DNA from: a virus
Length of the DNA stretch: 44,443 bases
Virus record (IMG/VR): IMGVR_UViG_3300050821_002947
Location: 1 to 44,443 of that record
Direction: 5' to 3' (one strand)
The first letter of the stretch is position 1; each line of letters starts with the position of its first letter. The notes below the pieces were generated by a model, which searched no databases, was not told the origin of the DNA, and worked only from the letters and a program-made list of their open reading frames with translations. The translations under genes were made by a program, and so were the position numbers. This document shows, piece after piece, positions 5,742 to 29,790 of the stretch.

Positions 5742-5843
5742 TCAATGCCTACGCCCCTCCTCTACCATGTCTTTGATTAGCTCTTTGAAGGCTTTCTTGA
5801 AGAAAGACCACAGTCCTTTGAAGAACAGAACGAAGTTTTTCAC
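5742..5843 (-). CDS. 33-aa amphipathic peptide
   Basis: A very short gene following ftsK-like, starting at GTG with a GTGA overlap with the ftsK-like stop and an AGAGGAG site 6 bases upstream. The product is VKNFVLFFKGLWSFFKKAFK followed by ELIKDMVEEGRRH. The first two thirds form an amphipathic helix with aromatic residues on one face and lysines on the other, as in membrane-active peptides. It could be an inhibitor or a small partner of the FtsK-like protein. The coupling supports translation; the role is unknown. Confidence 0.5.
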   Translation of the reverse strand: MKNFVLFFKGLWSFFKKAFKELIKDMVEEGRRH

Positions 5844-7000
5844 GATCGGCTCCTCTGCGCTGCAAACTCAATAGCTCCTTGAATGTCTTGCGCCGTAGCG
5901 AGTGGAGCATGAACTCGCTGCAAACCCGGCTTGTTTGGGTTGATGAAGAGCATGTCTCCGCGAGAGATAAGATGCTCGGCTCCGCCTGTATCCAAAACGA
6001 CACGGCTATCTGTCTGACTCGGTAGTCGGAAGGCGAGCCTGGCAGGAAAGTTCGACTTGATATCACCTTCCAGCAGCTTCGCGCTTGGGCGTTGAGTCGC
6101 GACGATAATATGAATCCCTGAAGCCCGAGCCTTCGCAGCGAGTTTCGCAAGCTTTCCCGAGGCAATCTTGCCAGCAAGAGCATATCGAATCTTGTCGTCT
6201 CCTCCGAAGGAGGCTGCCGAAGGCTCTTCTTCGATTCGTCGACGGTCAGCAAGCAAATCTGCGATTTCGTCCACGACAACAAGAATGTAGCTGAGGCGAG
6301 ATGCCGAGCCTTGTCGGGTTTGGTTGTATTCGAGGATGTTGTGTGTTGAGCTTTGAGCAAAGAGTTTTAACCTCCGTGTCATTTCGTCGTTTAGTTCGTC
6401 GAGCCGTATGTGGGTCATGTCGATGCTGGTCGCGATAAGGCTCCGTAGATGAGGAGCATCTCTGAACTTGGAGAATTCAACACCTTCTTTGATATCACAG
6501 AGAACAAGCTCAAGGTCGCTCGGTTTGTAGTTGAGGATAAGGCCTCCGATAATGCTGTTAAGCAGCGTCGACTTACCTCCTCCTGTCGACCCCGCAACAA
6601 GCAGATGAGGCATCAGCGTAAGGTCTTCGACAACGAGCTTTCCGAGGTAGTCGATTCCAAGGATGAGGGGTATCTTGTACTTTGTAGGGTCGAGCGTACA
6701 GTGATTGTACCACTTGACCCACTGTCGTTCGCGGTTCGGCACGAACACCCCGACGGCACTTTCGCCAGGCATTCGTTTTATCATTATGTCTTCGGCACCG
6801 AGTACCACCGCAAGGTCTTGGCTCAGTCCTTCGAGGTGAGAGACCTTCGTCGAGCCTCGAGGCTGGAATCGGTAGACAGAGACGATAGGGCCTACAGAAA
6901 TTGGATCGACGAACGAAGCTGACAAGCCGAGCTGAGAGAACTTATAGCCGATAGCAAGGACGACGGCTTTTTGTTCGTCAGTTTGGGGTGTTGGTGTCAT
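5840..7000 (-). CDS. FtsK/SpoIIIE-type DNA translocase
   Basis: A 386-residue soluble motor domain of the FtsK/SpoIIIE family, which pumps double-stranded DNA using ATP. Walker A is A-G-S-T-G-G-G-K-S-T (136-145), Walker B is ILVVVDEIADLL (D244-E245), and HIIVATQRPS near residue 297 is a hallmark of the family. The N-terminal region (residues 30-70) resembles the alpha domain that precedes the motor (VGPIVSVYRFQP). There is no membrane anchor and no C-terminal winged-helix gamma domain, so DNA orientation signals may not be read. It lies in one transcript with CGIYA, VWA and J-domain genes. Roles could be DNA or plasmid transfer, host interference or genome handling. Confidence 0.92.
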   Translation of the reverse strand: MTPTPQTDEQKAVVLAIGYKFSQLGLSASFVDPISVGPIVSVYRFQPRGSTKVSHLEGLSQDLAVVLGAEDIMIKRMPGESAVGVFVPNRERQWVKWYNHCTLDPTKYKIPLILGIDYLGKLVVEDLTLMPHLLVAGSTGGGKSTLLNSIIGGLILNYKPSDLELVLCDIKEGVEFSKFRDAPHLRSLIATSIDMTHIRLDELNDEMTRRLKLFAQSSTHNILEYNQTRQGSASRLSYILVVVDEIADLLADRRRIEEEPSAASFGGDDKIRYALAGKIASGKLAKLAAKARASGIHIIVATQRPSAKLLEGDIKSNFPARLAFRLPSQTDSRVVLDTGGAEHLISRGDMLFINPNKPGLQRVHAPLATAQDIQGAIEFAAQRSRS

Positions 7001-7693
7001 TTACTCTTTACCGGAACCGGTTCCCTCTTCGTCACTGGAATTTCCTTCTTCTGAGGGAGAGGACTCCGTACTGGCTCTGCTATCCCAGTCCTCTTCTTCT
7101 GGCCGATATTCATAACCATCCTCCTCTGGATTGTAGAGCAAAACTGGTTGTTCGACGTAGATTGGAACGCGATACTCTCGTAATGGTTCGAGCAACGAAG
7201 CTTGATTGTGTCTCAAAAAGAAACATTTCGGATAGGCAAGCTGTGCTCTCCAGCCGGAATCTCCTCGATAGTAACGGCCCCATCCGTAAATTTGACCGAT
7301 GATATCGTCTTCGTCGTAATACTCTTCGGCTTCGTAACGGTCTCCTGCTGCGTAGATGCCACAAAAGCAACGCTCCGTAGGGATTGCTTCGTGAGCACAC
7401 GTCGAGCATTGCGCTTTTAGTGGAGCAAGGAACGGCCAATCACACCCTCTTGTCATCAGACGATTATTTATGAAAGACCACGACTTCCAACCAATCAAAG
7501 CCTCCATCATATTCGTTTCGTATGGAGGTTCTGGAGGAAGAACTGGTTCTTCGTATTCAATGAAAGACGGACGTGGTCTGGTCGACATCGGAATGTAAAG
7601 TCCTCCGTGAAGAGTAAAATCCGAAGGAATCGGAAGTGTCTTCTCCATTAAAGACAACAGATGCGGAGAAATGTGTGGACCTTTCTTCTTCAA
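7001..7693 (-). CDS. CGIYA-motif conserved phage protein
   Basis: A 230-residue protein. The middle holds a recognisable module: GWKSWSF (69-75), WPFLAPLKAQC (86-96), then C96, C99, H101, C109 and C111 in CFCGIYA. This Trp-rich, Cys/His-rich CGIYA pattern recurs in many phage and actinobacterial accessory proteins of unknown function and probably binds zinc. The C-terminus is very acidic (Glu/Asp/Ser-rich). The stop codon lies immediately before the FtsK-like start with no gap, and the gene overlaps the VWA gene by 4 bases. The role is unknown; the context suggests a partner of the translocase. Confidence 0.65.
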   Translation of the reverse strand: MKKKGPHISPHLLSLMEKTLPIPSDFTLHGGLYIPMSTRPRPSFIEYEEPVLPPEPPYETNMMEALIGWKSWSFINNRLMTRGCDWPFLAPLKAQCSTCAHEAIPTERCFCGIYAAGDRYEAEEYYDEDDIIGQIYGWGRYYRGDSGWRAQLAYPKCFFLRHNQASLLEPLREYRVPIYVEQPVLLYNPEEDGYEYRPEEEDWDSRASTESSPSEEGNSSDEEGTGSGKE

Positions 7694-8463
7694 CGAAGTA
7701 CCTCCTTAGCCCCAATCTGGTCCGCCGACATACGACCGTCGGTGAGCATGGCTCGGTAGCCGGGAGTGAGGTAGGCGAAGGCGCTTGCGAAGGCTTTGAC
7801 ATCCGTAAACTTGAGATAGATGCCACCTGTCTCTTTGGCAATACGCCGAAGTCGTTCCTCGCCCGACGAGCTGTCTCCGATGTGGACACAGTCGATGGGT
7901 ATTTCGGCTTGTTTGTATTTCGACAAAATCGTATCCGCCGGATGTCTTTCAGGAGACTCAACATCGTCAAAGTTATAAACAGCGTCGTACCAGTCGGTAG
8001 CTTCGCCGTCGCTGACGATGATACCGCGTGTCATGGGTATCTTTTCGAGACAACGCTCGACACACGCTTTCATCGGAGTGTTACCGCTTGCGCTCAGGCC
8101 GCTGACGCTTGAGGTAATCATTACCCCAACGCTCGTTAGAGCAAGCTCAAGCTGCGGGGGGAACGTCTCGACCGCGAGCGAGGTGTTGTTAAAATCACAT
8201 CTGTTAACAAAGTTATCAATAGCCTCACGAAGCAGGTCTATCTTCGTTTTGCTCGCGCTTCGGTCTTTGTAATCCGCGACCGAGGCCATCGACGACGAGC
8301 GGTCAAGCATTAAGCAGAGGCGGTTCGGCATCGCCGTAGCGTCGAGCTGTGAGGCTTTCGCTTGGTTTACACGAGCCTGAAATGGAGTGCTCGTTGATTT
8401 GAGCTTGCCTCCGGTGAGGCTTAGTCCTGTGGGGGGACTTGTTGGAACAATTTTATCTGTCAT
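7690..8463 (-). CDS. von Willebrand factor A (VWA) domain protein
   Basis: A 257-residue cytoplasmic VWA protein. The metal-ion-dependent adhesion site is complete: D54-x-S56-x-S58 (LDRSSSM), T129 in SGNTPM, and D152 in IVSDGEATD. VWA proteins act as metal-dependent protein-binding platforms, often with AAA or translocase partners. The first 45 residues are a low-complexity linker. The gene overlaps the CGIYA gene by 4 bases and follows the J-domain gene by 12. No signal peptide or membrane segment. Placement with an FtsK motor and a J-domain protein suggests a complex, which is inference. Confidence 0.9.
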   Translation of the reverse strand: MTDKIVPTSPPTGLSLTGGKLKSTSTPFQARVNQAKASQLDATAMPNRLCLMLDRSSSMASVADYKDRSASKTKIDLLREAIDNFVNRCDFNNTSLAVETFPPQLELALTSVGVMITSSVSGLSASGNTPMKACVERCLEKIPMTRGIIVSDGEATDWYDAVYNFDDVESPERHPADTILSKYKQAEIPIDCVHIGDSSSGEERLRRIAKETGGIYLKFTDVKAFASAFAYLTPGYRAMLTDGRMSADQIGAKEVLR

Positions 8464-8475
8464 AGCGTTTTTCTC

Positions 8476-8958
8476 CTATCTTTTGAAGTATTCCTTTTCG
8501 AGTCTGGCCCACAAATCGTTGAGCTTAGACATCTTCGTTCCGTCGCCTGACTGCTTGTCAGGATGTAGGTCCATCGCTGCTCTGCGATAAGACGCCTTCG
8601 CAGCGTCGTAGCTCAACAACGAAAAGAACGCCAAAAGCGCATCCTCCGTCGTACCACCAGAAGTGTTAAGCATCGCTCCCTGCGACGAGGTACGCTGCTG
8701 AGTGTTTTGTTGAGCTTGCTCGGCTACGGTCTTGCTCGTGAACGATACGGCGTGAATCCCAAATCCAGAAACAAAGAGGCTCCGAAGAGCCTCTCCGTAG
8801 GGTTCCTTGACGTACCACATCTTCGATTGAGGGTCCCAAGAGCGGTCGCCTGATGGGATTAGAGCCTTTAGCGTATCGACGAGCTTTTCGTTAAAAGCCA
8901 TCGACACGACGTAGGCTTGAGCGTTGGTGTCCCAGAAGATACGGGCTTTGATGGCCAT
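8476..8958 (-). CDS. J-domain protein with HARP-like N-terminus
   Basis: A 160-residue protein. The C-terminal 60 residues form a compact J domain with the diagnostic H-P-D at 132-134 (DLHPDKQ) and the preceding helix SYRRAAM; this motif stimulates Hsp70/DnaK ATPases. The N-terminus has DRSWDPQSKMWYVKEP (38-53), a W-x-P-x-x-x-x-W pattern like the small HARP repeat of SMARCAL1-type annealing helicases. A phage J-domain protein could redirect host DnaK. It sits upstream of the VWA gene and 3 bases downstream of a small basic gene. The J-domain call is firm; the HARP resemblance is tentative. Confidence 0.88.
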   Translation of the reverse strand: MAIKARIFWDTNAQAYVVSMAFNEKLVDTLKALIPSGDRSWDPQSKMWYVKEPYGEALRSLFVSGFGIHAVSFTSKTVAEQAQQNTQQRTSSQGAMLNTSGGTTEDALLAFFSLLSYDAAKASYRRAAMDLHPDKQSGDGTKMSKLNDLWARLEKEYFKR

Positions 8959-23952: not shown

Positions 23953-24621
23953 ATGCCACACACAGAATCAAGATACATGCAGAGTTTGGGATTCAATGAC
24001 GCTCGTCTCTTTGCTGGTCCTGGAGATGCGATTGCCGTAGGCTCGACGGCTGCTCCGGTGATTACAAGAAATGCCGTTGGTGATTGGTCGCTTACGAGAA
24101 CGTCGGCTGGAGCCGAGACGCTTAATATAGCGGTCAATGTTACACAGCAGATTCTTCGTCGTACAGGGTTCTTCGAGGATTTGCAGGAACAATTCGGCGG
24201 TGCTGGTATTTCTGCTTCGGCTGCGCCGCAAGGACGTCCCGATACTATCGGAGCGATGAGCACTGGTCAATGGATTACGCCACGAACAGCCTTCAAACTT
24301 AAAGGATTTAAGCTCCTTTCGGTTGATGCTGTCTATCGCGTGACCGTTGCTAACCTCACGACGAACACTTTGCGAGTCGACCAAACTCTGATGGTAAACA
24401 ACGTCGCGCCGGCGGTGACGGCTGTATTGGCTGCGACCGGTATCCCGACGGTTGTACAGGCGAACCCTTACGTAACGAACGTTCCTTTGCCGGCCGCTCA
24501 GCAAATTTACCGAATCTCTCCTGACCAGGAGCTCTGGATTGAAATGACGGTCGCGATTCCGAACACGTCGAAGCTTGACTTCTATGGGTTCGATATGCTT
24601 GTTGAGTTTAATTTCAACTAG
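23953..24621 (+). CDS. Virion-block structural protein (222 aa)
   Basis: Beta-rich protein without cysteines or a signal peptide, beginning MPHTESRYMQSLGFNDARLF. The regular alternation of hydrophobic and polar residues (VYRVTVANLTTNTLRVDQTL, QELWIEMTVAIPNTSKLDFY) suggests a jelly-roll or similar virion domain. AGGAGG lies 6 bases upstream of the ATG. By place it could be a head or neck component; no family recognised. Confidence 0.65.
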   Translation: MPHTESRYMQSLGFNDARLFAGPGDAIAVGSTAAPVITRNAVGDWSLTRTSAGAETLNIAVNVTQQILRRTGFFEDLQEQFGGAGISASAAPQGRPDTIGAMSTGQWITPRTAFKLKGFKLLSVDAVYRVTVANLTTNTLRVDQTLMVNNVAPAVTAVLAATGIPTVVQANPYVTNVPLPAAQQIYRISPDQELWIEMTVAIPNTSKLDFYGFDMLVEFNFN

Positions 24622-24631
24622 GGGAGTCGTG

Positions 24632-24844
24632 ATGCATTGGGACTTTACAATCAGCTTCGGCAATATTCTTACAATGATCACGTTCGTTTTTTTCTTGATA
24701 GGACTGAACTACAAGGTTCAGAAATGGCTCGACCATTTTTCGATCGAGCATGAAATCCTCATTCGTGATTATTGCGAGCGACATGACCTGAAAGTCACGG
24801 ACCTTCCGACGAGGTTCAGAGCGAGGATTATAAATGGCGAATGA
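24632..24844 (+). CDS. Single-span membrane protein (70 aa)
   Basis: Begins MHWDFTISFGNILTMITFVF. It has one membrane helix (ILTMITFVFFLIGLNYKVQ, about residues 12-30) and a charged cytoplasmic tail (HEILIRDYCERHDLKVTDL). AGGGGAG precedes the ATG; a GTG three bases earlier is possible. It overlaps the next gene by 11 bases. It could be a small holin or membrane accessory close to the M15 peptidase (25137). Confidence 0.6.
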   Translation: MHWDFTISFGNILTMITFVFFLIGLNYKVQKWLDHFSIEHEILIRDYCERHDLKVTDLPTRFRARIINGE

Positions 24845-25130
24845 TATTAGCTCACGTACTTGGTTTATCGACACTCCTGGAGCCTTGGTTATCTACCCTT
24901 ACCAAGTCTACATCAAATTCATCGAAGTTGTTGGCGGAGCCGCAGCCGGAGCGCAAGGAGCGGTAATGGCTGATATCCGCGACCGAAACAACAAATCGAT
25001 CGTCTTGTCGCTCTTTCAGACAGTACTCGCCGGCGAAATACAGACTTACAACCTGGAGAACTGGTTCGAGGGTCTTATCGTTGCAACACTCGGAGCCGGC
25101 CCGACAACTCTTCGGGTCCATGTGAAGTGA
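24834..25130 (+). CDS. Structural-type hypothetical protein (98 aa)
   Basis: Begins MANDISSRTWFIDTPGALVI. Mostly beta strands (KSIVLSLFQTVLAGEIQTYN, GLIVATLGAGPTTLRVHV), Gly/Ala-rich, no signal peptide. Its fold impression is like small phage virion proteins with repeated strands. It starts within the end of the membrane-protein gene and is followed after 6 bases by the M15 peptidase. The specific role is unknown. Confidence 0.6.
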   Translation: MANDISSRTWFIDTPGALVIYPYQVYIKFIEVVGGAAAGAQGAVMADIRDRNNKSIVLSLFQTVLAGEIQTYNLENWFEGLIVATLGAGPTTLRVHVK

Positions 25131-25136
25131 GGTTCT

Positions 25137-25511
25137 ATGGGAGTTGTTCGAGTTAAAGACGGTGTTCAGTTTACGAAGATAGCTCCGGGGGGCTTTCGAA
25201 TCCTCTCGACTATCGACATTTGTGCGGCTTCGCTCCCTCATGACCTTACAATTACGTCCGCGTGTGATGGAGAACATAGCGGTCCGAACGACCCTCATCA
25301 TCGAGGTGAGGCTTTTGATGTTCGTACGCACGACCTTGACCCTGATAGGAAAGACCTTATTCTTAAAAGTATTCAGGGAAACCTCGGGACTGGCTTTTAT
25401 GCTTTTCTCGAAGACCATGGAATGGACAACGAGCATTTTCACATTCAGGTAAGGAAGGGTACTGAGTATCCTCCTCAGATTCTGACGGACCCGGAGTTGT
25501 CAACAACGTGA
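25137..25511 (+). CDS. M15-family peptidase (endolysin candidate)
   Basis: A 124-residue metallopeptidase of the M15 D-Ala-D-Ala/L-Ala-D-Glu type. Zinc ligands are readable: H54-x-x-G-x-A-x-D61 (HHRGEAFDVR) and the HxH-like pair H100-F-H102 (EHFHIQV). Such enzymes cut peptidoglycan cross-bridges or stems and are a common phage endolysin. There is no signal peptide, so release would depend on the holin. It overlaps the ATP-grasp/HAD gene by 4 bases and is separate from the holin-like and lipoprotein genes at 16.5-17.3 kb. Confidence 0.85.
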   Translation: MGVVRVKDGVQFTKIAPGGFRILSTIDICAASLPHDLTITSACDGEHSGPNDPHHRGEAFDVRTHDLDPDRKDLILKSIQGNLGTGFYAFLEDHGMDNEHFHIQVRKGTEYPPQILTDPELSTT

Positions 25512-27091
25512 GTCGATTCTTAATACTCTCTGATGCAGGTGATGGTGTCGGACTCGCTTTGCGGTTGAAGCTTGAAGGCCACGACGCTAAGATTAAGATA
25601 TTCGACCACATGCACAACACTCAGGGAAAAGGACTTGTCGATTACTCGGAAGAGTATCAAATGGGCCAAATCGTCATCGCAGATTGCACCGGCTTCGGGG
25701 AAGTACTTGACTCCTTCCGCGATGCTGGCATTCCAGTCTTTGGTGGAGGCTCATTTGCCGACAAGCTAGAGGCAGACCGAAAGTTTGCCGAGGAGGTGAT
25801 GCGGAAAGCAGGAATAGAGACTCCCAAATCTGTGTCAGTTACTACCTGGAAAGACGCCGCGAAGCAGGCTGAACGGCTCGCGGAAAACACTGGGAAGGTG
25901 GTTCTGAAACCTGAAGGCGACCTTAGCGGCGTCATTCCTTCGTATGTAGCGTCGGATGTTGAGGATGCTCATACGATGTTACAGCAGATGGAGAAGGAGC
26001 ATGGTGCTGGAGATGTTGAGCTTACCGTCCAAGAGTTTGTCGAAGGAACCGCCGTGTCAACCGAGGGTTGGTTCAACGGCGAAGATTGGGTCGAAGGGAT
26101 GTTCAACCACACGATTGAGCGAAAGCAATTCCTCAACGGTGACCTTGGCCCCTCAGGAGGCTGTACCGGCAACGTCGTATGGCTTGTTGAGTCTAACGAC
26201 CCTCTAGTGAAGCAAACGTTACTTTTGTTAACAGAAGCCTTGCGTGCGCGCCGATATGTTGGTCCAATCGACGTTAACTGCGTTGTCAACAAAGGAGGTG
26301 TCTATGGCCTGGAGTTTACCCCCCGCTTCGGGTATGATGCGTTTCCTACTCTACTGCATTCTCTTTGTGATTGGGAGTTTGGTGTTTTTATCGCTGATTT
26401 GGCTTGTGGCTCTAGCAATAGCGCTCGCCTTATGGAAGGTTTTGGGGCAGGGGTTAGGCTGAGTATTCCGCCGTGGCCTAACGAAAAGTACCACAACGAG
26501 GACTGTGTCAAGCTTCAAGGTTTCGATGAAGATGCTCGTGAGTACTTTTATCCTTATGGAGTTCAGCTTGCCGAGGACGAGCTAACGAGCTCGCACGGAG
26601 TCGGTATTCTTGGAGTTATGAATTACGAAGGACGAAGTATCGGTCAAGCATTCGCTTGTGTGTATCACCAAATATCGAAACTGAAGATACCAAACCTTCA
26701 GTACCGAACCGACATGACCGAGCAATGCTTGAAGGATTACAGAGAGCTTCAGCACATTTTGACAGGTGACGAAGGTGAGTGGATTGGAGTCGACCTTGAC
26801 GGAACGCTCGCGAAGTATGGTGGTTGGAGCGAAGAAATTGGAGAACCCATTCCTCTAATGGTTCAGCGAGTAAAGCGTTGGATTCGCGATGGCAAGGAAG
26901 TCCGTATTTTAACGGCGAGGGGTTCGGTGGAAGGTTCGGAGAAGTATGTTCAGCTTATGAAGGTCTACGACTGGGTCGAGGCTTTCATCGGTGAGCCTCT
27001 CGAAGTTACGGCTCAGAAGGACCCGTTGATGCTTAAGCTCTACGACGACAGAGTCGTACAGGTTGAGGCTAATCAAGGAGTGCTCGTTTAA
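25508..27091 (+). CDS. ATP-grasp (PurD-like) and HAD fusion enzyme
   Basis: A 527-residue two-domain protein. The N-terminal about 400 residues look like PurD (phosphoribosylamine-glycine ligase) and other ATP-grasp carboxylate-amine ligases: a pre-ATP fold (SRFLILSDAGDGVGLALRLK), a nucleotide-binding region with VVLKPEGDLSG and a metal region ending in LEFTPRFG. The last about 100 residues are a HAD-type phosphatase domain: GVDLDGTLA (D429-x-D431), LTAR and DPLMLKLYDD. Joining ligase and HAD in one phage protein is unusual. It sits between a peptidase and tail genes. The reaction and substrate are unknown; amino acid or peptide ligation is the class expectation. Confidence 0.8.
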   Translation: MSRFLILSDAGDGVGLALRLKLEGHDAKIKIFDHMHNTQGKGLVDYSEEYQMGQIVIADCTGFGEVLDSFRDAGIPVFGGGSFADKLEADRKFAEEVMRKAGIETPKSVSVTTWKDAAKQAERLAENTGKVVLKPEGDLSGVIPSYVASDVEDAHTMLQQMEKEHGAGDVELTVQEFVEGTAVSTEGWFNGEDWVEGMFNHTIERKQFLNGDLGPSGGCTGNVVWLVESNDPLVKQTLLLLTEALRARRYVGPIDVNCVVNKGGVYGLEFTPRFGYDAFPTLLHSLCDWEFGVFIADLACGSSNSARLMEGFGAGVRLSIPPWPNEKYHNEDCVKLQGFDEDAREYFYPYGVQLAEDELTSSHGVGILGVMNYEGRSIGQAFACVYHQISKLKIPNLQYRTDMTEQCLKDYRELQHILTGDEGEWIGVDLDGTLAKYGGWSEEIGEPIPLMVQRVKRWIRDGKEVRILTARGSVEGSEKYVQLMKVYDWVEAFIGEPLEVTAQKDPLMLKLYDDRVVQVEANQGVLV

Positions 27092-27681
27092 TGCCTTTTC
27101 CTCCGGTATTTACAAACATCTGGGACATAACGTTCCCTCCCGACACTCAGCTCGCTAACCTGCTTGGACAGGATTTGAGGCAGCTTCGTGTCGACGTTAT
27201 GCAGCGGATGTCGTTGCTAAGCGGAACGCTCGGAAATCGTCCGACACCGGAGATTCTTAACGCAACTTGGGGCGGAGCTGGGTTTGGTCTCACTTACTAC
27301 GCAACGGACACAAATCAGCTCTTTCAGTGGAATGGGGGAGCATGGGTTCAGCTTGTCGCTGGCTTACCGACGATAGGTGGTGTTTTCATCGGACCTGTCG
27401 CTGCTCAGACGATTGTTATATGGCAAGCTCCTTTTGCGTGTACGGTAACGAATGTAAAAGGCTTTCGTAGCGGAGGTACTGGAGCTACAGTGAACGCTCA
27501 GAAGAACGGAGCGTTGAACCACCTCGCAGCTGATTTGAGCCTCGTTGCGAATAACACTTGGACGGACGGCGGGGCTGTTCAGAACACGGCCTATGCAATC
27601 GGAGATTATCTTAGCTTGATGCTTACGGGGGAGACAGGAAGTCCTTCTCAAGTAAACGTTCAAGTGAACTTTACACGCTGA
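27091..27681 (+). CDS. Tail structural protein (196 aa)
   Basis: The N-terminal half has NIWDITFPPDTQLANLLGQD and a helix; the C-terminal half is beta-rich with ACTVTNVKGFRSGGTGATVN, like a phage fibre or appendage tip domain, including WDGGAW-like turns (QWNGGAWVQLVAG). No signal peptide. It starts on the last base of the ATP-grasp gene's stop (TAATG), so it is tightly coupled. It may be a tail appendage or adaptor; the exact role is unknown. Confidence 0.6.
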   Translation: MPFPPVFTNIWDITFPPDTQLANLLGQDLRQLRVDVMQRMSLLSGTLGNRPTPEILNATWGGAGFGLTYYATDTNQLFQWNGGAWVQLVAGLPTIGGVFIGPVAAQTIVIWQAPFACTVTNVKGFRSGGTGATVNAQKNGALNHLAADLSLVANNTWTDGGAVQNTAYAIGDYLSLMLTGETGSPSQVNVQVNFTR

Positions 27682-28206: not shown

Positions 28207-29790
28207 ATGCCTCAGCTTCAAGACAGAAACCAAGTACGCTCTGAGGAGCAATACGAAGCCTCTTTAACCGGGCCGTTCGGAGGGACGCAGTCTGAGCTTC
28301 CTTTGACGGAGATAGAGTCTTTTGGCTTTGCTGACGTTAAGAACTTTATCTTCCGAAAAGGAGCTGCCTATGTTCGTCCTGGATGGACGGCGTTGCCTGC
28401 TTTCCCTGCTCCTGCGAATGAGCCTATTATGGCTATCGCCGATTTCTATAACATACTCGGTGCTCATATTCAGTGTGTTATCACACCGACAAGATTGCTT
28501 CAGTTTGTAAACGGGAATTGGACTGTTATTACTGGTCCGGCTTTCAGCGGGAATGCGAATCAAATTTTTTCTTGGGATGTTTTGAATTACCTCCTTTGCT
28601 TCTCGCAAGGTGTTGACAAACTTTTTACGTGGGATGGTATCGCTCCGACGTACAATCAAGTCGCCACGGCGCAGCCTTTTAAGTACATAGCTGAGGTTGG
28701 TCTACATCTTATTGGAGTGAATCCGGCTTTCCCGAACCGTTATTACTGGTCAGGAATTGGTGACCCAACCGACTGGACGAGCTTTAGCTCTGGTCTTAAC
28801 GATATAGTGAACAACCTTGGTCCTATTAACGGAGTGATAAAGCTAGGACAGTATGGCGCGGGAGTTCACCAAAACGGATTCATGCAGATTATTCCTACAG
28901 GAATAGGTCTTGCTCCCTTCAGTTTTGTTCCTATTATCAACGCGACGCAAGGAGCTATTGCCCCCTATAGTATTGACCATTTCGACGACAATGGTCGTGA
29001 GATGGAGGTTCATCTTGGTGTTGATAATGTTTACGCTTTTGACGGCTCGTCGATGCAAACAATCGGTGATATGCCAATCGACCAACGTCGTAGGCTTGGC
29101 GCTCGTTCTAGAATTCTCACCGACGTAATGTCGGTTAATCCTCAAAAGATTTTCGGCTTTCCTACCTACTCAATAAACGGACAGCCTTTTCGAGCCTACT
29201 GGCTTGTGATTCCAAACGTATCGGTGTGGGTTTACAACTTCGACGAAGGTAATTGGGCTCAGCTTACCTTCAATAAAACAATAGTGACGGTTGGAAACTT
29301 CTTCAAGAATCAAGCAATTCGTATTATTGACCTTGTCGGAACAATCCAAGCCCAAACTTGGACACCAGCTACTCTTCAGCAAAACAACCCCTTCGAGGGC
29401 TTTTTGCTTGGCTTTAGCGACGGTACTGCGGGCTATATGGATTTCTCGAACTACTCCGAGATACCCGCAAGCTTAACCTCAGGAAAGCTTATCTTCGGAG
29501 ATCGCAGGCACGAGCATCAAGTTAAGAAATTTCGTTTGTCTTTTATCGACCTCGGCCCGACGACATTTACTATTACGTTGTCGAATCAGCAGAACCAATC
29601 GAAGTCCTTTGCGTTTACGATCGGTTCAGGGAGTGGTGACGTGTTGAGCTACATCCAGGAATTCAACATGACTGGACTTCGGTTTCAGTACGTGGTGTCT
29701 GTACCGGCGTTGACGGCTACGGCTATTGTTGAGTTGTGCCCAATCTGGGATGTCGGTGGAGAACAACGTGGTGGATTGGTGGCAAATTGA
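28207..29790 (+). CDS. Tail hub protein, P22 gp10-like
   Basis: A 527-residue protein of the size and style of podovirus tail stabilisation or hub proteins (P22 gp10-like), which join the portal-connector ring to the tail needle and spikes. Typical are VKNFIFRKGAAYVRPGWTAL near the N-terminus and repeated beta-propeller-like blades with aromatic turns (FSWDVLNYLLCF, RYYWSGIGDPTDWTSF). The C-terminal third has RHEHQVKKFRLSFIDLGPTT followed by a beta domain. The next gene overlaps by a TTGA. The gp10 call rests on length and pattern. Confidence 0.65.
   Translation: MPQLQDRNQVRSEEQYEASLTGPFGGTQSELPLTEIESFGFADVKNFIFRKGAAYVRPGWTALPAFPAPANEPIMAIADFYNILGAHIQCVITPTRLLQFVNGNWTVITGPAFSGNANQIFSWDVLNYLLCFSQGVDKLFTWDGIAPTYNQVATAQPFKYIAEVGLHLIGVNPAFPNRYYWSGIGDPTDWTSFSSGLNDIVNNLGPINGVIKLGQYGAGVHQNGFMQIIPTGIGLAPFSFVPIINATQGAIAPYSIDHFDDNGREMEVHLGVDNVYAFDGSSMQTIGDMPIDQRRRLGARSRILTDVMSVNPQKIFGFPTYSINGQPFRAYWLVIPNVSVWVYNFDEGNWAQLTFNKTIVTVGNFFKNQAIRIIDLVGTIQAQTWTPATLQQNNPFEGFLLGFSDGTAGYMDFSNYSEIPASLTSGKLIFGDRRHEHQVKKFRLSFIDLGPTTFTITLSNQQNQSKSFAFTIGSGSGDVLSYIQEFNMTGLRFQYVVSVPALTATAIVELCPIWDVGGEQRGGLVAN

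Follow-up and report, generated by a model that had tools for sequence, protein, structure and literature searches.

A viral PurD-like ATP-grasp ligase that is not PurD, fused to a HAD domain and placed behind an exchangeable lysin gene

The window, the whole stretch of DNA analysed here, comprises 44,443 bases and is classed as linear in its IMG/VR record. On its plus strand, positions 25508-27091 hold a confirmed open frame of 527 aa with a GTG start. Residues 1-415 (25508..26752) form the ATP-grasp part, assigned from Pfam and NCBIfam matches, an AlphaFold 2 model compared with Foldseek and an alignment of 85 members, and residues 425-527 (26780..27088) form a C-terminal HAD phosphatase domain. 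Upstream on the same strand lie a small protein with one hydrophobic stretch (24575..24844), a conserved 98-aa protein (24834..25130) and a putative endolysin resembling M15/Hedgehog-fold zinc peptidases (25137..25511). The small protein is holin-like by position only; it has homologues in two of the related loci (L001, L008) and a family search gave no match. The 98-aa protein, just upstream of the lysin slot, belongs to a sequence family (cluster 4) with relatives in 23 loci. Downstream, 27091..27681 (+) is a conserved gene (cluster 1) found in 31 loci, at an offset of +1 in 22 of them, and the product of 28207..29790 (+) matches phrog_3287 (E 2e-23), a virion structural protein. The late position given in the preliminary description holds.

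The end of the M15-type gene and the start of the ligase share 4 bases (GTGA), and the ligase stop shares 1 base with the start of the next gene (TAATG). Both overlaps had been described as joining the ligase to an M15 peptidase and a tail gene; the overlaps and the M15 type stand, while the tail identity of the 27091-27681 gene has no support from any family match. As also described, no purine genes were found among the window proteins scanned. Elsewhere in the window, all on the minus strand, an FtsK/SpoIIIE ATPase lies in the phage early region (5840-7000, E 6e-33), adjoining VWA-like and DnaJ-like proteins (7690-8463 and 8476-8958) have weak matches below cut-off, and a DNA polymerase I fragment recognised by eye, without a Pfam match, lies near the contig end (43514-44230). 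Because of this fragment the record is probably truncated.

Residues 1-415 are predicted to be a PurD-fold ATP-grasp ligase. The Pfam family GARS_A (PF01071) matches residues 89-275 with 42 bits against a cut-off of 27, and the NCBIfam model TIGR00877 (purD) matches residues 66-406 (E 8e-22). The AlphaFold model, computed with 54 natural sequences as input, has a mean pLDDT of 90.5 and a pTM of 0.90. Its best 15 PDB fold matches are all GAR synthetases (5vev, 2ys6, 2yw2 and 1gso among them; TMt 0.70-0.78, 16-20 % identity), with biotin carboxylase and CPS ranking after them. The whole fold is alike, including the C-terminal RxD domain, of which R400 and D402 are kept. Membership of the ATP-grasp superfamily thus follows from the Pfam match, the model fold and the invariant K134, K206, E269 and R273, with the threonine that replaces the usual ExN partner counted as a mark of the subfamily and not as a superfamily criterion. 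The viral structure library BFVD gave no full-length match to the ligase (best TMq 0.38), and PHROGs v4 holds no strong family for it, phrog_29784 alone matching weakly in 9 of 54 members.

The residues that the ligase and PurD have in common are those of ATP and metal binding (E88, K134, K206, E269, R273) and the G-P..G loop. Eight positions, K134, E204, K206, D255, N257, E269, T271 and R273, are fixed in 85/85 members of the alignment; PurD sequences there have K, D (one E), K, Y (one S), G/Q/S, E, N and R, so that D255 and N257 are new. Members from Roseomonas and Sphingomonas, found after the 85-member alignment, have N at 255 and keep N257 and T271. The R-E-H of the N-terminal PurD motif GxGxREHA, which all but one of the 11 PurD-like outgroup sequences have, is replaced across the family (GxREH becomes GDG), and PurD EFNxRFGDPE reads EFTPRFGYDA in the window ligase. 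The change of ExN to ExT occurs in every one of the 85 members, and the E of DPE becomes A, T or Q. In a QM/MM study of Aquifex PurD (PMC8880213) the glycine site comprises D212, R287 and E292, and Mg is assigned to E100 with K214; these five residues align with E204, R273, A278, E88 and K206 of the ligase, respectively. The phosphoryl-transfer machinery and part of the glycine site are thus kept, with E292 and the N-terminal REH lost. Since the ATP and metal residues are kept and both PurD substrate sites are rebuilt, the product would not be GAR. The pattern supports an active acyl-phosphate ligase with substrates other than those of PurD. A point on the other side is that ExT at the ExN position could go with a changed use of metal or with lower activity.

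The D-Ala-D-Ala and D-Ala-D-Ser ligases share with the window ligase the ATP-grasp core and an Asp in the strand that precedes the ExN/ExT pair. In DdlB, the Asp and the ExN pair are D257-E270-N272. They differ in that the window ligase has a PurD-type C-terminal domain and the PurD fold over the whole chain.

Relatives of the ligase, 95 % to 26 % identical in about 80 fetched contigs, share about 20 invariant residues. In comparisons with five relatives both domains have a dN/dS of about 0.1 where dS is computable, and still less in one pair, which shows purifying selection. The feature is therefore not a product of chance. Degenerate-pattern scans found at least 140 relatives in IMG/VR viral contigs, of which 79 loci were kept for analysis, and six contigs only in a collection of genomes from 85,000 species. 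When 11 PurD-like outgroup sequences are included in the tree, the family forms a single clade (support 0.97). By its sequences, the ligase is not PurD; it belongs to a separate, mostly viral clade with haloarchaeal and alphaproteobacterial relatives. Neither of the conditions that would have refuted the preliminary description holds: the catalytic residues of both ATP-grasp and HAD are retained, apart from a diagnostic replacement of Asn by Thr, and the gene is not cargo orthologous to a host PurD.

A purely viral family was rejected on account of the cellular members. When 100 genomes of the Halobaculum phylum were searched with a profile, about eleven had strong members, mostly at 350-456 bits and in two cases split, far above the next matches at 90 bits or less. 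Several of these members share chromosomal surroundings with a thymidine kinase, an HD domain and an MBF1-like protein, named by eye; a conserved functional operon was not found. The haloarchaeal chromosomes L144-L153 carry a conserved ExT family member, in two frames in L153. These haloarchaeal and alphaproteobacterial orphans, labelled 'phosphoribosylglycinamide synthetase C domain', belong to the same family and have ExT, and differ in a GEMGT loop instead of GC.GN, in their chromosomal or plasmid location and in having no lysis genes nearby. Plasmid members occur in Roseomonas, Sphingomonas (split) and Halarchaeum; the Roseomonas one (L172, 8944-10218) adjoins an aminotransferase, with a type III polyketide synthase nearby. 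In Chloroflexota a single contig (L082) carries a member, PurD there scoring 144 bits or less. The one GenBank phage record with a member is MW202796, itself an environmental genome, where the circular phage genome ct2os315 has an unannotated copy with an LEFTMRPGWP motif (MW202796.1 42149-43441, L166). Two UNVERIFIED 'phage' records, OR845008.1 and OR846666.1, were rejected: their matches are genuine bacterial purD, probably from host contamination. Several other weak GenBank phage matches are annotated as, or resemble, bacterial purD.

The HAD domain matches phrog_1238 and phrog_415 over residues 425-491 and has intact motifs (D429-L-D431-G-T, T of TAR, K, DDR), so that the joining of a PurD-like ATP-grasp to a C-terminal HAD in one 527-aa product, as first described, holds. 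Among 16 fused sequences passing a DLDGTL filter 15 have complete motifs, L024 having KN instead of KD. The fusion is confined to one clade (window, L001-L008, L013-L024, L030) and is absent from L009/L036, a pair nested within it, a pattern indicating that the HAD was fused once and lost in one sublineage. A separate HAD gene was not found in the fetched contigs of unfused relatives, and the HAD as an obligatory partner in trans was rejected on these grounds. It is thus an optional, lineage-specific add-on and not part of the core enzyme.

The HAD domain is 44-50 % identical to Rhizobium/Mesorhizobium phage proteins. In other phages its homologues are small proteins, as in Rhizobium phages, or neighbours of ThyX. 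The same phrog_1238 domain adjoins ThyX in Vibrio PVA7 and Cronobacter Ss1, whereas it is fused to the ligase here. In two podoviruses HAD relatives overlap thymidylate synthase genes (PQ582223.1 12169-13576, KM058087.1 27131-28520). By analogy, the homologues beside ThyX hint at a nucleotide-like phosphate substrate.

About one in two distinct viral loci has a peptidoglycan hydrolase gene directly upstream of the ligase, usually overlapping it. At least six folds occupy this slot: M15/Hedgehog-like (window, L008, L014, L015, L024, L028, L036, L044, L047, L048), a second M15 type (L004, L005, L016, L017, L023), M15_3 (L039, L062), Tlde1 (L007, L019, L054), NPGN lysozyme-like (L003, L009, L022, L027, L041, L043, L045), GH24 with a holin-like gene (L053, L059, L063) and SleB (L011, L064). 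Many of the upstream proteins are also named, independently, by Pfam and PHROGs. In L003, L005 and L023 the upstream overlaps had been hidden by over-extended ligase ORF starts. The product of the window gene carries the zinc motif H..G.A.D...H.H, with H54, G57, A59, D61 and H102 invariant in its alignment (A5). It matches Hedgehog-N by profile and by fold and LdcB and zinc DD-peptidase folds weakly, the fold matches reaching E 2e-3 at best; it is predicted to have an M15-type, MD-clan fold and is a putative murein hydrolase.

Control flanks 1-5 kb away have a lysin in 1 of 99 genes (L055, M15_3), and the downstream set has no lysin and a holin in 1 of 69 genes; the Fisher p is about 0.001 on our own count of 13 vs 1, with ORFs that are not independent. 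Profiles built from the upstream lysins gave 34 of 39 matches within 1 kb upstream, which is 8.5 % of the flank, a count that is biased towards the upstream slot and includes 4 giant virion proteins among the 34. Mapped on the ligase tree, the 32 loci need at least 20 switches of lysin type; shuffled labels give 20.8 +/- 1.3, so the real number is not below that of a random arrangement. The lysin is therefore swapped freely, and the ligase remains. A partnership specific to M15 was rejected: many lysins can take the place of the M15 gene, so the ligase is tied to a slot in a lysis cassette and not to M15 chemistry. In the largest other phage group the ligase sits between terminase and portal, often without a lysis gene, and the Roseomonas and haloarchaeal members lie in non-viral contexts without lysis genes.

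On balance we favour a cytoplasmic, late, amide-forming ligase with a substrate other than those of PurD, probably acting in lysis timing or at the envelope. Its core would use ATP to turn a carboxylate into an acyl-phosphate, which would then be joined to an amine. The enzyme would be produced late in infection in the cytoplasm, and in the window clade the fused HAD may dephosphorylate the substrate or product of the ligase. The analysis shows the fold, the clade, the residues kept and lost, the purifying selection, the lysin adjacency and a single gain and a single loss of the fusion. We infer the amide chemistry and the late expression, whereas any part in lysis, like any choice of substrate, is speculative. 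The product would probably act at the lysis or envelope stage because much of the subfamily sits in an exchangeable lysis cassette behind an endolysin. Against this, the gene directly upstream is not a recognised lysin in about half of the loci, and most members of the terminase-portal group have no lysis genes beside the ligase. The adjacency may reflect an insertion site in the late operon rather than a common function. The lysis role is thus a strong lead and not a result.

An alternative is modification of a virion protein: a peptide or amino-acid ligase would attach a residue to a structural protein made late, and the HAD would trim phosphates. In phages the ligase is always within the late gene region, one large group has it between terminase and portal, and conserved structural genes follow it in the window clade. 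However, no single structural gene is a constant neighbour across groups, the nearest fold is the small-molecule ligase PurD and not RimK/TTL, and the chromosomal haloarchaeal members have no virion genes, so we consider virion modification rather unlikely. It is also conceivable that the enzyme modifies peptidoglycan precursors in the manner of a D-Ala-D-Ala ligase, weakening or protecting the wall around lysis. The murein hydrolase directly upstream at many loci and the partial matches to VanG/Ddl models fit such a role, but the D-Ala-D-Ala/D-Ser ligase models of NCBIfam score 12-24 bits against cut-offs of 243-500, and the ligase is unchanged when the lysin switches from peptide- to glycan-cutting. 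Haloarchaea, which have no murein, carry chromosomal members, so a universal murein role is impossible, and we regard precursor modification as distinctly unlikely.

A true auxiliary purD boosting purine synthesis is very improbable: TIGR00877 does match 54/54 members and surveys list viral purD/GART as auxiliary genes (PMC11097641, PMC11360552), but the window ligase reaches 77.6 bits against the curated equivalog cut-off of 288, REH, ExN and DPE are lost throughout the family, the clade is separate and purine neighbours are absent. Equally far-fetched is a part in 7-deazaguanine DNA-base modification. Group II phages do carry FolE, QueD and a TGT-like gene, but the window-clade and terminase-portal contigs checked (about 40-48 kb) have neither FolE nor QueD, and among the contigs checked the two genes are confined to group II, apart from FolE in L057/L067. 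The group II contigs themselves (L037-L051; G012-G019, G021) carry FolE, QueD (two checked) and the TGT-like gene, a set that suggests 7-deazaguanine DNA in these phages, and giant proteins of 1.6-1.9 kaa with an NPGN lysozyme-like N-terminus.

Other phage-encoded ATP-grasp enzymes are known. LUZ24-like phages such as UFV-P2 have a 291-aa ATP-grasp in the early region with an amidoligase and a GATase (PMC3890496), in contrast to the 415 aa, PurD fold and late position beside lysins seen here; no amidoligase or glutamine amidotransferase Pfam families were found among the ligase neighbours scanned. The viral R2K ATP-grasp, proposed to conjugate peptides and sporadic in jumbo phages (PMC7824862), is a different family. 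Our literature search found no description of the PurD-like family or of an ATP-grasp in a lysis cassette.

Studies of snow (PMC11097641), oceans (PMC11360552) and vents (PMC12043954) list viral purD as an auxiliary gene; in the oceans it was virus-enriched more than 2.8-fold and commoner in viruses than in cells. These published genes may include members of the present family, which is large, unrecognised and mostly viral. A large set of PurD-like viral genes is thus not PurD, whereas surveys of ocean and snow viruses report viral purD/GART as purine-boosting; ExT plus N257, with neither REH nor DPE, provides a simple residue test to sort them. Returning to the lysis reading, we tentatively propose, as a somewhat unlikely extension of it, a hitherto unrecognised class of lysis-module enzymes widely mis-filed as purD, in which the ATP-dependent ligase would make or conjugate a small molecule late in infection that sets lysis timing or conditions the envelope, staying constant beside an endolysin that is exchanged again and again. 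The lysin-swapping cassette offers a testable case for a lysis enzyme beyond holin, endolysin and spanin.
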